From positions 1 through 35,729 of the forward strand of contig JALOPN010000033.1 in NCBI GenBank assembly GCA_025453875.1: 35,729 bases of DNA, given 5' to 3'. The notes beneath the pieces were generated by a model. It searched no databases. It saw only the letters and a program-made list of their open reading frames with translations, and was not told where the DNA came from. Below, in pieces: positions 4,704 through 21,579 of this stretch (the first letter of the stretch is position 1; each line of letters begins with the position of its first letter). A program made the position numbers and the translations under genes. This DNA comes from Gemmatimonadaceae bacterium. GTDB taxonomy: Bacteria > Gemmatimonadota > Gemmatimonadetes > Gemmatimonadales > Gemmatimonadaceae.

Positions 4704-5534
4704 CTAGTCCGGATCCGAAACGTGGGCCGATCGATCGCCCGCGTCGGGCGCTCGACCGAATGTGAGATAGCTGACGAGGCGGACGCCGCGGTCGGTGAGC
4801 ACCGACGCGGCCGCGTTGAGCGTGGCAGCCGTCGTGATCACGTCGTCGACGAGCACGAGATGGGTGCCTCGCAGTCGGGCGGCGACCCCGGGATCGATGT
4901 CGAACGCCGACGAAACGTTGCGTGTCCGCTCGGAGGGTGTCAACTGCGTTTGCGTGCGGGTCGCGCGAGTGCGACGCAGTACGTCATCCCAGAGCGGGAT
5001 GCCCCAGAGACGCGCGACCACGACGGCCAGCAACCGGCTCTGGTTGAAGCCGCGCTCGCGCTCGCGGCTACGGGCAAGCGGGATGGGCACGAGCGCGGTC
5101 CGCTCGGCCACGACATCGGCGGGCCAGTCGACGCGTGCCATGCGTCGCGCCATGCCGTCGGCGACCTGCTCCCACCCATCGTACTTGAGGGCGTGCACAA
5201 TGGCGCCCGCCGTGCCGGTGTCAACGCGCGCGACGGATCGCACGGCGCGCACGGTGTGGGGCAGCCGCTCGCACCAGCGGCAGCGAGGCGATGGAGTGCT
5301 TGTGGCCTCGCCATCCGTGCCGGGGGGTGGCAACACACGGGGGTGCCCGCATCGCGCGCAGGAGGGCTCGGGAAACGCGTCGAGCCGCGCCCAGCAGGTG
5401 CCGCACACCGGATCGGGGGCGTCGGCCTCGAGCAGGCGCCGGCAGCACGCACAGGCGCGCGGCAGCAAGAGGTCGGCGAATCCGCGAGCGACGGTGCGCC
5501 AGCGGAACGCCGAGGAGGCGCGCGCCGGCGTCAT
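4704..5534 (-). CDS. comF: ComF-family phosphoribosyltransferase-like protein
   Basis: ComF family, linked in other bacteria to DNA uptake and single-stranded DNA handling; its enzymatic activity is not settled. The N-terminus carries a zinc-ribbon-like Cys cluster (ACACCRR, CGTCW, CARCGHP, CRWC within the first about 85 residues). The C-terminal type I PRTase fold has the PRPP-binding motif [13 protein letters not shown] near residues 227-239. The ORF track extends 68 codons upstream, but that segment is Arg-rich shadow of aroE. I choose the ATG at 5534 because it overlaps the aroE stop by 4 bases (ATGA) and gives a normal 276-residue protein. Confidence 0.88.
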
Positions 5535-6391
5535 GCGGGGGTCGGCTCGGGTGAGCGCGGTTCGAGCACGCGCCACATGGCGGTCACATCGGGCACCTCG
5601 CCGAACCACCAGGCGTAGGCGGCGGCGCCCTGCGCGACCAGCATGCGCAGTCCGTCCTCGGCGCGGTGTCCGAGGGCGCGCGCGTCGCGCACCCACGCCG
5701 TCTCGCCCGGGCGATACACGAGATCGAGCACGGCGCAACGCGCCGGGAGCGCGGCGAGGTCGAGCGGGACTGGGTCGTTGGCGTGCAGCCCGAGCGGGGT
5801 CGTGTTGATGACGAGTGCGCCCTCGAGGTCATGCGTTGGGGCACTCACCGCGCGCGCGCTGTGCGTGAGTGCGAGCCGCTGAATGAGCGCCTCGGCACGC
5901 TCGTGCGAGCGCGCGGACACGTGCACGCGCGCCACGCCGAGGGACTCGAGCGCGAGCAGCACCGCCGCTGCCGAACCGCCTGCGCCAAGCACGAGGGCGC
6001 TTGTGGGCACGGTGTCGTCCATCACCGCGCGAATGGCGTCGCGCGCGCCCTCGACATCGGTGTTGTGTCCGACCAGCGCACCGGACGCGTTCACCCCAAA
6101 GGTGTTCACCGCGCCCGCGCGTCGCGCGAGCGGCGTGAGCACATCACATAAGCGGGCGACGTCTTCCTTGTGCGGCACCGTGACGTTCCCCGCGATACCG
6201 GCAGCGCGCAGCGCGCGCACGGTCTCCACCAAGGCGTCCGGCGAGACGTCGCGTGCCGTGTACCGCACCCGCTTCGCGGCGGCGTCCAGCGCGGCCTGCT
6301 GAAAACGCGGGGAGAGCGAATGCGACACCGGATGACCGAGCAGGACGAGCGACGTCGGCGCCGGTCCACCCAACCACTCGTGGCTCGACAC
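5531..6391 (-). CDS. aroE: Shikimate dehydrogenase
   Basis: NADPH-dependent reduction of 3-dehydroshikimate to shikimate in the chorismate pathway. The N-terminal substrate domain has GHPVSHSLSPRFQ and NVTVPHKED with the catalytic Lys. GHNTDVEGA supplies the Asn/Asp substrate contacts. The Rossmann glycine loop is VLGAGGSAAAV, followed by ARSHERAE for the cofactor ribose/phosphate and INTTPLGL. The C-terminus has EDGLRMLVAQGAAAY. It starts at GTG, 12 bases after the phosphatase stop, and its end overlaps comF. The 286-residue length is normal. Confidence 0.95.
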   Translation of the reverse strand: MSSHEWLGGPAPTSLVLLGHPVSHSLSPRFQQAALDAAAKRVRYTARDVSPDALVETVRALRAAGIAGNVTVPHKEDVARLCDVLTPLARRAGAVNTFGVNASGALVGHNTDVEGARDAIRAVMDDTVPTSALVLGAGGSAAAVLLALESLGVARVHVSARSHERAEALIQRLALTHSARAVSAPTHDLEGALVINTTPLGLHANDPVPLDLAALPARCAVLDLVYRPGETAWVRDARALGHRAEDGLRMLVAQGAAAYAWWFGEVPDVTAMWRVLEPRSPEPTPA

Positions 6392-6403: not shown

Positions 6404-6874
6404 TCAATCGCGCGCGTTGCCCCGATCGGCCTGCAACCGATCGAGCACCCGGTGCACCAGCTCCTCCAGTTCGTCGTACGTTCGACGATAGACGTCGAGG
6501 TCGCCACCGAACGGATCGCTGATGGGCGCGTCACTCGCGCCACGCGAGGCGTAGTGCGTGAGCTGGTGGGCGCGCGCACTGCCGCCGAGCACATGCACCC
6601 GCTCGAGATGCGACGGGCCCATGGTCAGGATCAGGTCGGCCGTTTCGATCACCGACGGCGAAAGCGTGCGCGCCCGATGTGACGCGAGGTCCAGTCCATG
6701 CTCGAGTGCGACGAGCAGCGAACCGTCCGACGCCGAGGCCCCGTCCCAGGCGCTCGTGCCCGCGCTGCTCACGACGAGGTCAGACAAGCCGCGCTCGCGT
6801 GCGGCGGCGCGAGCGATCACTTCGGCCAACGGGCTGCGACAGGTATTGCCGGTGCAGACGAAGAGAACGTGCAT
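6404..6874 (-). CDS. YwlE-like low-molecular-weight protein phosphatase (probable protein-arginine phosphatase)
   Basis: LMW-PTP fold, 156 residues. The P-loop is VCTGNTCRSP, with nucleophile Cys7 and Arg13, and the general acid is Asp120 in DPFGG. The residue at P-loop position 11 is Thr. In Bacillus YwlE this Thr selects phosphoarginine, whereas tyrosine phosphatases have a bulkier residue there. The C-terminal DVYRRTYDELEEL also closely resembles YwlE. The tsaC-like gene lies 25 bases upstream, the same pairing as ywlC/ywlE in Bacillus. The ORF track extends the N-terminus by 113 codons; I choose ATG 6874 because the P-loop starts within a few residues of it in this family. Substrate specificity is inferred. 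Confidence 0.88.
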   Translation of the reverse strand: MHVLFVCTGNTCRSPLAEVIARAAARERGLSDLVVSSAGTSAWDGASASDGSLLVALEHGLDLASHRARTLSPSVIETADLILTMGPSHLERVHVLGGSARAHQLTHYASRGASDAPISDPFGGDLDVYRRTYDELEELVHRVLDRLQADRGNARD

Positions 6875-6899
6875 GCGTCGCTCGAGAAACAGGGAGAAC

Positions 6900-7571
6900 T
6901 CAGAGATTGCCGACGAGTTCCGGCACACAGGTGCGCAGCGTCGCTGCCGAATGCACCCCTGGCCGAATGACGCGCGGACGGCGACCGGTGCAATCGACCA
7001 CGGTCGACGGTGGCGAGGGTGGCAGGCGACCGCCATCGAGGACGAGCAGCAGGCCGCGCAGGATTTCATCACGCCACTGCTCGGCAATCTCGCCAGCCGA
7101 GACCGCAGGCGGAACGCCGGGACGATTGGCCGATGTGGACGTGATGGGCTCGCCGTAGGCCGCGAGGATGGCCTGCAGCCCCGGATGCGGTGTCCACCGC
7201 ACCGCGACACCACCCTCGGGACCGCGCAGACGCTCGGGCACCCGATGGTCGCCGCCAGGCAGCACGAGCGTCAGCGGCCCGGGCCAGAATCGCGCCGCGA
7301 GTCGTGAGGCCGACGGCGTGAGCACCAGCCCGAGCCGCTCCAGCATCGCGCTGCCGTTGATGAGCAGCAGGAACGGCTTGTGCGGCGGACGCCGCTTCAT
7401 GCGGACGAGCGCTTCGACCGACTCATGATCGACGGCCGTCCCGAAGCCATAGACCGTTTCGGTCGGATACGCGAGCACGCGTCGTTCGGTGAGGTGCGCG
7501 ACCACCGGCCGCACGGCGGCCTGCAGATCGGCCGGTGACCAGAACGGCGTCGTGAGTTCGGTGGACTGCAC
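6900..7571 (-). CDS. tsaC: Threonylcarbamoyl-AMP synthase (TsaC/YwlC/Sua5 family)
   Basis: Makes threonylcarbamoyl-adenylate from threonine, bicarbonate and ATP for the t6A37 modification of ANN-decoding tRNAs. The 223-residue YrdC-fold protein shows AYPTETVYGFG, KRRPPHKPFLLL, RFWPGPLTLVL, ITSTSANRPG and PSTVVDC, all parts of the substrate cavity. It lacks the extra C-terminal Sua5 domain. The start is GTG with a GAGG about 9 bases upstream, 9 bases after the ispD stop. Confidence 0.93.
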   Translation of the reverse strand: MQSTELTTPFWSPADLQAAVRPVVAHLTERRVLAYPTETVYGFGTAVDHESVEALVRMKRRPPHKPFLLLINGSAMLERLGLVLTPSASRLAARFWPGPLTLVLPGGDHRVPERLRGPEGGVAVRWTPHPGLQAILAAYGEPITSTSANRPGVPPAVSAGEIAEQWRDEILRGLLLVLDGGRLPPSPPSTVVDCTGRRPRVIRPGVHSAATLRTCVPELVGNL

Positions 7572-7580
7572 GCCGTCGCC

Positions 7581-8357
7581 TCAGTCGGTGAGCAGACTGA
7601 GCGCTTCGGCGCGCGCAAAGTCGGCTTCTTCGGTGATCTTGAGCGCGCGTTCCGATCCGCGCACTACGACCACCTCCGCGCCGATGCGTTCGCAGAGGCC
7701 GGCATCATCCGTCGCGCCCACGCGATCGTTGCGCGCAGCGAGATGCGCGCGCTCGAGCATCTCGCGTGGAAAGGCCTGCGGCGTCTGCGCACGCCAGAGA
7801 TTGCTGCGATCGACCGTGTCGGTGATGCGACCGTCGGCATCCACGCGCTTGAGCGTGTCCACGACGGGCAGCGCCGCCACCGCACCGTGGCCGCGTCGTG
7901 CTTCATCGATCACGCGCGCGATCGTCTCGTCGGTGACGAGCGGACGCGCGGCGTCGTGCACGACCACAACGCGGACCTCCTCGGGCATGTCCTCGAGTCC
8001 ATTGTACACCGACTCGTGCCGTTCGCGGCCACCGACCGACACGAGCAGTCGCTCGACATCACACTGGAACAACCAGGGCGGCGGATCCGCCGCGTACGCC
8101 TTGGGCAGCACCACGACCACGGTGGCCACATCGGGACGCGCCATGAAGGCTTGCACGCTGTGCAGCAATGCGGGCTTGCCGGTCACCCAGCGGAACTGCT
8201 TGAGCTCCTCGCCGCCCACACGCGAGCCGCTGCCGCCGGCGACGATGACGACGCCGACATCGCGCGTCACGTCGGACGTGCGCGCGGGCGCCCCATCGTC
8301 GCGCGCACGCACGATGGGGGGCGGAACGATGCGGCGCGGAGGCGTGTCACTCGTCAT
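7581..8357 (-). CDS. ispD: 2-C-methyl-D-erythritol 4-phosphate cytidylyltransferase
   Basis: Third step of the non-mevalonate (MEP) isoprenoid pathway: MEP plus CTP gives CDP-ME. The CTP-binding loop reads VAGGSGSRVGGEELKQF, a variant of the usual AAGxGxRMG...PKQ. HDAARPLVT and the terminal LKITEEADFARAE are also diagnostic. I choose ATG 8357, which gives 258 residues and an 11-base overlap with the end of radA. The longer ORF-track start lies inside radA, and the first about 30 residues are already a nonconserved Pro/Arg-rich tail. ispF is not adjacent. Confidence 0.93.
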   Translation of the reverse strand: MTSDTPPRRIVPPPIVRARDDGAPARTSDVTRDVGVVIVAGGSGSRVGGEELKQFRWVTGKPALLHSVQAFMARPDVATVVVVLPKAYAADPPPWLFQCDVERLLVSVGGRERHESVYNGLEDMPEEVRVVVVHDAARPLVTDETIARVIDEARRGHGAVAALPVVDTLKRVDADGRITDTVDRSNLWRAQTPQAFPREMLERAHLAARNDRVGATDDAGLCERIGAEVVVVRGSERALKITEEADFARAEALSLLTD

Positions 8358-9309
8358 CGGTTGACTCATCGAAGGAACGGTCATCACTTGCGGCACCGGC
8401 GAACGCCGGTCGCGCGCGTCGCGGTTCGGCACCTGCTGCGCCAGCGCGGCGTGGTCCGATGGTGCGCATCAGCACATCACCCAGGGTGCGCACGCCGTGC
8501 ACCGTCATGCCGGCTGGCACACGATGCGGCACCGCGCGCTCGGCGAGATACGCCTCGGTCATGCCGAGCTTCGCAGCTTCGGCGAGTCGCCGCTCGACCT
8601 GCGTCACGGCGCGCACTTCACCACCGAGCCCGAGCTCACCGAGGAACACCGCGCGCGCGGGGAGCGCGCGATCGGTGACGCTGCTCGCGATCGCCATCGC
8701 CACGGCCAGATCGACGGCCGGTTCCTGCACGCGCATGCCGCCCACGAGATTGCAGAACACATCGAGGTCGGCGCACGAGAAGCCCCCACGCTTGTCGAGC
8801 ACGGCGAGCAGCAGCGCGAGGCGGCGCCCGTCGATGCCGTTGGCAACGCGTTGCGGTGTGCCGAAGCCCGCGCGCGCCGCAAGTGCCTGCACCTCGACGA
8901 GCACCGGACGCGTCCCTTCCATGAGCGCACACACGGCGCTGCCGCTCGCGACGTTGTCGCGCTCCCCCATGAACAACGCGGACGGATTCGCGACGGGCTC
9001 GAGGCCACTGGGTGCCATGCGAAACACCCCGATCTCGTCGACGCTGCCGAAGCGATTCTTCGTGGCCCGCAGGATGCGGTGATCGAGCGATCCCTCGCCC
9101 TCGAAGTACAACACGGTGTCGACGATGTGCTCCAGCGTCTTCGGGCCGGCGATGCCGCCGCCCTTCGTCACGTGGCCGATCACGAACACCGTCACGTTGC
9201 GTTCCTTCGCGTACCGCATGAGTCGCGCGGCGCATTCGCGCACCTGCCCCACGTTGCCCGGCGCGCCTTCGAGCAACTCCGTGTGCACCGTCTGGATGGA
9301 GTCGATCAC
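8347..9309 (-). pseudogene. radA: RadA/Sms C-terminal fragment (frame broken)
   Basis: Larger part of a disrupted DNA repair and recombination ATPase gene (RadA is a RecA-related branch-migration helicase). This frame starts at the Walker B region (VIDSIQ) and includes GHVTKGGGIAGPKTLEH, the RadA signature KNRFG, the NPSALF region and the Lon-protease-like C-terminal domain with LLAVLDKRGG and FLGELGLGGEVR. The only in-frame initiator near its beginning is GTG 9309, overlapping the upstream stop as GTGA. About 33 residues expected between LYVSGEES and VIDSIQ are missing, so neither half is a complete ATPase. It may be a true pseudogene or an assembly/sequencing deletion. Confidence 0.85.
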
Positions 9310-17849: not shown

Positions 17850-17921
17850 CTGGGGCGGGTGGACTCGAACCACCAACCACTCGATTAACAGTCGAGCGCT
17901 CTGCCATTGAGCTACACCCCA
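17850..17921 (-). tRNA. tRNA-Asn (anticodon GTT)
   Basis: The minus strand folds as a 72-base tRNA. The acceptor stem is TGGGGTG with CGCCCCA, with one T-G wobble. The D arm contains AGCTCAATGGCAGAGC. The anticodon stem CTCGA/TCGAG surrounds loop CTGTTAA with anticodon GTT. The T arm is GGTGG-TTCGAGT-CCACC and the discriminator is G. CCA is not encoded and must be added enzymatically. Confidence 0.95.
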
Positions 17922-21495: not shown

Positions 21496-21579
21496 TACCC
21501 AGGAAGGGAATCGAACCCTTATAACCCGAAGGTTGGGGGATTTTGAGTCCCCTGCGTCTACCAGTTCCGCCACCTGGGT
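21496..21579 (-). tRNA. tRNA-Leu (anticodon CAA)
   Basis: An 84-base class II tRNA on the minus strand. Acceptor arms ACCCAGG and CCTGGGT are fully complementary, with discriminator A. The D arm TGGCGGAACTGGTAGACGCA is typical of tRNA-Leu. The anticodon stem GGGGA/TCCCC encloses loop CTCAAAA with anticodon CAA. The long variable arm AACCTTCGGGTT and T arm AAGGG-TTCGATT-CCCTT are visible. CCA is not encoded. Confidence 0.96.

Follow-up and report, generated by a model that had tools for sequence, protein, structure and literature searches.

A predicted YwlE-type protein-arginine phosphatase in a Gemmatimonadaceae genome that also carries mcsA, mcsB and clpC

Descriptions of phosphoarginine signalling usually present it as a system of Gram-positive bacteria. 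On the side of its phosphatases, the systems closest to the one described here are YwlE of Bacillus subtilis (PDB 1zgg, 4kk3, 4etn) and of Geobacillus stearothermophilus (4pic), together with PtpB of Staphylococcus aureus. In YwlE, a threonine at position 11 favours phosphoarginine (pArg) and an isoleucine favours phosphotyrosine (pTyr), the exchange of Thr for Ile lowering the activity on pArg and raising that on pTyr; in PtpB, the T11I substitution leads to an approximately 6-fold higher hydrolysis of pNPP (PMC8001253). A redox control through Cys7 and Cys12 is also known for YwlE (PMC6429109). On the side of the kinase, McsAB has been published for Chlamydia, so its occurrence outside Firmicutes is already known, and in vitro the ClpCP2P1 of C. 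trachomatis degrades arginine-phosphorylated casein and not plain casein (PMC10128030). The phosphatase reported here and the McsAB/ClpC of its genome belong to this known system, in a phylum for which we found no published description: our search, mostly outside subscription literature, returned no publication on McsB in Gemmatimonadota or Planctomycetota.

The stretch of DNA analysed as a whole (the window, 35,729 nucleotides from a Gemmatimonadaceae bacterium) carries on its minus strand, at 6404..6874, an open reading frame of 156 amino acids with an ATG start, stop included, whose translation is MHVLFVCTGNTCRSPL...DPFGGDLDVYRRTYDELEEL. The product belongs to the low-molecular-weight protein-tyrosine phosphatase (LMW-PTP) fold family (PF01451, E=2.7e-31) and has its C(X)5R(S) P-loop, C7-T-G-N-T11-C12-R13-S14, at 6833..6856(-), with Cys7 as the nucleophile, Cys12 as the second cysteine and, at the X5 position, Thr11 as in the YwlE type (codon 6842-6844); the extended motif reads CTGNTCRSP. 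The DPFGG general-acid loop lies at 6503..6517(-), its D120 being the equivalent of YwlE D118. The protein aligns from end to end with B. subtilis YwlE (55 identities over 156 columns) and has in common with YwlE and PtpB, besides this full-length homology, the CTGNTCRSP motif with Thr11, the DPFGG loop, the DELEEL C-terminus, the Cys7/Cys12 pair and a tsaC/sua5 gene in the neighbourhood. The preliminary description of this DNA had pointed to a LMW-PTP with CTGNTCRS, Thr11 and DPFGG and to a DELEEL end shared with YwlE, all of which are confirmed. The difference from YwlE and PtpB lies in the host, which is a member of Gemmatimonadota, and in position 11, which within this phylum is Thr, Ile or Val.

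We propose, with a probability of roughly 0.87, that this gene encodes a YwlE-type protein-arginine phosphatase, with its McsA-McsB writer and ClpC reader predicted in the same genome. The Pfam label (LMWPc) and the strongest NCBIfam matches, which are Wzb-like tyrosine phosphatases and all below cut-off, would rather suggest an ordinary LMW protein-tyrosine phosphatase in which Thr11 arose by chance. Against this, the PDB ranking places the YwlE entries at the top (E approximately 1e-23) and the first pTyr enzyme at 7.6e-18, and a quick maximum-likelihood tree of 83 sequences separates YwlE-like from pTyr-like LMW-PTPs with 100% SH-aLRT support, the window protein falling among its orthologues from Gemmatimonadota and, at a wider level, with B. 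subtilis YwlE, apart from the pTyr-type enzymes of the phylum. A position inside the tyrosine phosphatases, on which the first proposal would have failed, is thus not observed. The YwlE-like class of Gemmatimonadota is characterised by C[T/S]GN[T/I/V]CRSP, mostly with DP[F/Y/I]G, in an ispD-sua5-ptp-aroE context, whereas the pTyr-like class has CLGNICRSP with DPYYG or DPYFG and stands outside this context; a CLGNI/DPYYG paralogue that was tested (L033) matched best a mammalian LMW-PTP (1e-39) and only poorly YwlE (1e-10). The window enzyme has DP[F/Y]G and not DPYY, and Thr8 and not Leu8. In addition, Thr11 and McsB occur together, in the comparison of phyla as well as in that of Bacilli, and McsB is found in every Gemmatimonadota genome sampled (see below). 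On the strength of the tree and this co-occurrence we reject a chance Thr11 in a pTyr enzyme, and we regard an ordinary tyrosine phosphatase as very improbable.

The phosphatase gene is preceded on the minus strand by tsaC/sua5 (L-threonylcarbamoyladenylate synthase, 6900..7571; TIGR00057, 130.8 bits for a cut-off of 123.2; PF01300, E=1e-41), from which it is separated by 25 bp, and upstream of tsaC by ispD (7581..8432), and it is followed by aroE (shikimate dehydrogenase, 5531..6391), all three on the same strand and conserved as neighbours. The run dnaB, radA, ispD, sua5, ptp, aroE, comF, gapA is also present on named Gemmatimonadetes contigs, above all L209, whose proteins are approximately 51-80% identical to those of the window neighbourhood. 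The phosphatase had been said to sit behind a YwlC-like gene as in Bacillus: the neighbour is indeed tsaC/sua5, but in the Bacilli loci the two genes lie approximately 1.1-2.3 kb apart, leaving room for a gene between them, whereas in the window they are immediately adjacent within ispD-tsaC-ptp-aroE. In a cross-phylum scan (see below), sua5 is found nearby and on the same strand in at least 48 of the 79 Thr11 loci listed, 21 of these outside Bacillota, which indicates an ancient and shared association with tsaC. Elsewhere in the window, two tRNA genes were detected with Rfam on the minus strand, at 17850-17921 and 21496-21579.

The genome of the window is a 2.96-Mb draft in 410 contigs, 64% complete, and another of its contigs (G000:C183) carries mcsA, mcsB and clpC consecutively. 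McsB, McsA and ClpC, proposed earlier as the partners to look for, are thus all found on one contig. The best NCBIfam matches of the two proteins are McsA and McsB, yet both fall under the curated equivalog cut-offs, which were set on other lineages. McsB aligns end to end with solved protein-arginine kinases (E=4e-78), and its NEEDH, CPTN and GEGS motifs are kept there and in the sampled relatives (50 inspected). McsA has a C-x2-C-x14-C-x2-C finger, and an equal spacing has been reported for Cys87/90/105/108 of S. aureus McsA (PMC12467219); a mcsA with CxxC pairs adjoins mcsB in the window genome and likewise in 49 of 50 Gemmatimonadota loci. In the ClpC N-domain, both GTEH glutamates are conserved, these being the equivalents of E32 and E106, which are residues of the pArg site (PMC12583610), but they constitute weak evidence because mycobacterial ClpC1 keeps the pArg-site glutamates without a known McsB (PMC9604228).

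The gene order mcsA-mcsB-clpC, the catalytic motifs of McsB, the zinc finger of McsA and the pArg-site glutamates of ClpC are as in the ctsR-mcsA-mcsB-clpC operon of Firmicutes. Chlamydia likewise is a Gram-negative host of McsAB with ClpC, although there mcsAB is separate from clpC (PMC10128030) and in Gemmatimonadota the genes are adjacent. Unlike the Firmicutes operon, the Gemmatimonadota locus has an ABC-transporter ATPase gene before mcsA, and no CtsR was found in 150 genomes. Unlike the Firmicutes McsB, that of the close relatives of the window genome also lacks the pArg receptor R337/D338 (B. subtilis numbering): RD is present at these positions in 0 of the 30 closest loci, the window genome having SN, in 3 of 20 more distant Gemmatimonadota and in 16 of 30 named loci, and several Planctomycetota have RN. 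R337/D338 is therefore not required by all McsB proteins. In B. subtilis, the double alanine mutant of these two residues has destabilised multimers (PMC8370763).

The extent of the system in the phylum was examined on 150 Gemmatimonadota genomes from 74 genera, almost all at least 90% complete. McsB and a LMW-PTP were each detected in 150 of 150, and the order ABC ATPase-mcsA-mcsB-clpC was observed in 47 of 50 loci. Genes, motifs, synteny, co-occurrence and phylogeny point to an arginine-phosphorylation system which, as predicted from these sequences, looks complete and phylum-wide. An orphan eraser, that is, a phosphatase left behind after loss of the kinase, was the second option offered by the preliminary description beside a phosphoarginine system. 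The system is the part which stands: the presence of McsB in the window genome, with mcsA and clpC next to it, refutes the orphan at the gene level, and McsB is found in all the sampled relatives and keeps its catalytic motifs in those inspected (50), so that this option is now scarcely credible. The search for CtsR, also proposed earlier, gave 0 of 150 Gemmatimonadota genomes while the same search detected CtsR in a Lactococcus control, which means that the repressor branch of Bacillus is missing in Gemmatimonadota. A second control, a genome named Bacillus subtilis, matched neither McsB nor CtsR and was left out of the results; B. subtilis is known to have both genes, adjoining each other, and this stretch is apparently absent from the control genome; the same McsB model matched 138 of 151 Bacilli genomes. 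The ABC-transporter ATPase directly before mcsA (LolD-like by eye; L001:92-838) occupies the place that ctsR has in Firmicutes.

The residue at position 11 varies within the phylum. The syntenic phosphatase has Thr11 in approximately 117 of the 150 genomes (105 by DNA pattern, and 12 read from loci or alternative codons, other codons or residues having escaped the pattern) and Ile or Val in 26 (approximately 17%, all with McsB), counts which leave out 7 genomes; with the pattern reversed as a control, none of the genomes listed had a match. Thr11 thus seems maintained in approximately 117 of 150 genomes, among them that of the window and almost the whole of its family, and is not a chance feature of one gene, as had been left open at first. 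The Ile11 forms keep Thr8, the DP[F/Y]G loop and the synteny, the catalytic motifs of McsB are intact in six checked genomes that have them, and they fall inside the YwlE-like clade, where the tree shows four changes of label, only one of them forced by the starred branches. Since McsB is kept in the 26 genomes with Ile or Val, either Thr is dispensable for the eraser role or this role was lost there; in the light of the YwlE and PtpB mutants, these lineages have a relaxed eraser or the Thr rule depends on the background. Such variants, which amount to at least 26 of 150 genomes with the same synteny and loop and which arose inside the YwlE-like clade, are in agreement with a phosphatase of dual or relaxed specificity, weakly selective and having pArg among its substrates, as is the absence of a second LMW-PTP match from some Gemmatimonadota genomes. 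The seemingly maintained Thr11 and the pArg selectivity of YwlE itself argue against it, and for the window enzyme we hold it to be unlikely.

To evaluate the association of Thr11 with McsB more widely, GTDB species genomes were scanned, unselected, for the codons of CTGNTCRSP. The scan gave at least 80 loci, 79 of those listed being real LMW-PTPs, from Bacillota, Planctomycetota, Gemmatimonadota, Verrucomicrobiota, Zixibacteria, Elusimicrobia, Lentisphaerae and Aerophobetes among others. None of these 79 comes from Pseudomonadota, Bacteroidota or Actinomycetota, which make up a large part of the GTDB collection. A match in Microbulbifer (L222) was rejected as a 17-amino-acid frame that is not a phosphatase, in a genome without McsB. 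When 50 genomes of the scan were searched, McsB was present in 47 of the 49 whose Thr11 phosphatase is genuine, and in 38 of 40 outside Bacillota. In Bacilli (the class of Kurthia), the Thr11 P-loop is found in 131 of 138 genomes with McsB versus 1 of 13 without it (Fisher p=3e-12, not corrected for shared ancestry). The co-occurrence of the phosphatase with McsB, expected for the YwlE type, is thus found in the window genome, the phylum sample, the cross-phylum sample and Bacilli. The location outside Firmicutes emphasised at first holds for this member of Gemmatimonadota, but it is less exotic than implied, Thr11 phosphatases with McsB being found also in Planctomycetota, Verrucomicrobiota, Zixibacteria and others.

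In the predicted system, the McsA-activated McsB of contig G000:C183 would be the cognate writer, phosphorylating arginines on damaged or selected proteins, and ClpC would be the reader, ClpC(P) degrading the arginine-phosphorylated proteins. The window phosphatase would erase pArg by the two-step LMW-PTP reaction, with a phospho-enzyme intermediate on Cys7 and Asp120 as general acid, and Thr11 would favour the smaller and polar pArg over pTyr. From the genes and their described homologues we infer this activity on pArg, the substrates, the ClpCP outcome, the direction of regulation and a control of the phosphatase by the Cys7/Cys12 redox pair. As no CtsR was found, the modification would probably be a degradation tag or act on other regulators, rather than serve the CtsR switch of Bacillus. 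A further proposal, which we put forward tentatively and consider possible, if somewhat doubtful, is that in this CtsR-free system pArg is purely a mark of degradation and quality control, that the kinase lost the Bacillus-type pArg receptor, and that some lineages went from Thr11 to Ile while keeping the kinase, so that the removal of pArg there either relies on another mechanism of selectivity or no longer takes place.

A whole Gram-negative phylum with the kinase, its activator, the ClpC reader and a predicted eraser, together with a Thr11 eraser that tracks McsB across several phyla, makes it probable that the modification is far older, and far more widespread, than the literature consulted would suggest. 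The natural Thr and Ile variants of one syntenic orthologue, with McsB kept in all of them, constitute a panel for the single-residue rule of pArg/pTyr selectivity, which could be probed in this way outside engineered mutants. Concerning the genes themselves, three genomes of genus g51 (G054, G044, G146) have a single in-frame TAG within the McsB match, possibly a frameshift, a pseudogene or a recoding. The ywlE-like gene shares a contig with mcsB in more than 20 genomes of the family to which the window belongs (for example G017:C1, G037:C1, G053:C22, G078:C2 and G127:C1); approximately 93-125 kb separate the two genes, a distance that is conserved but is not that of an operon.
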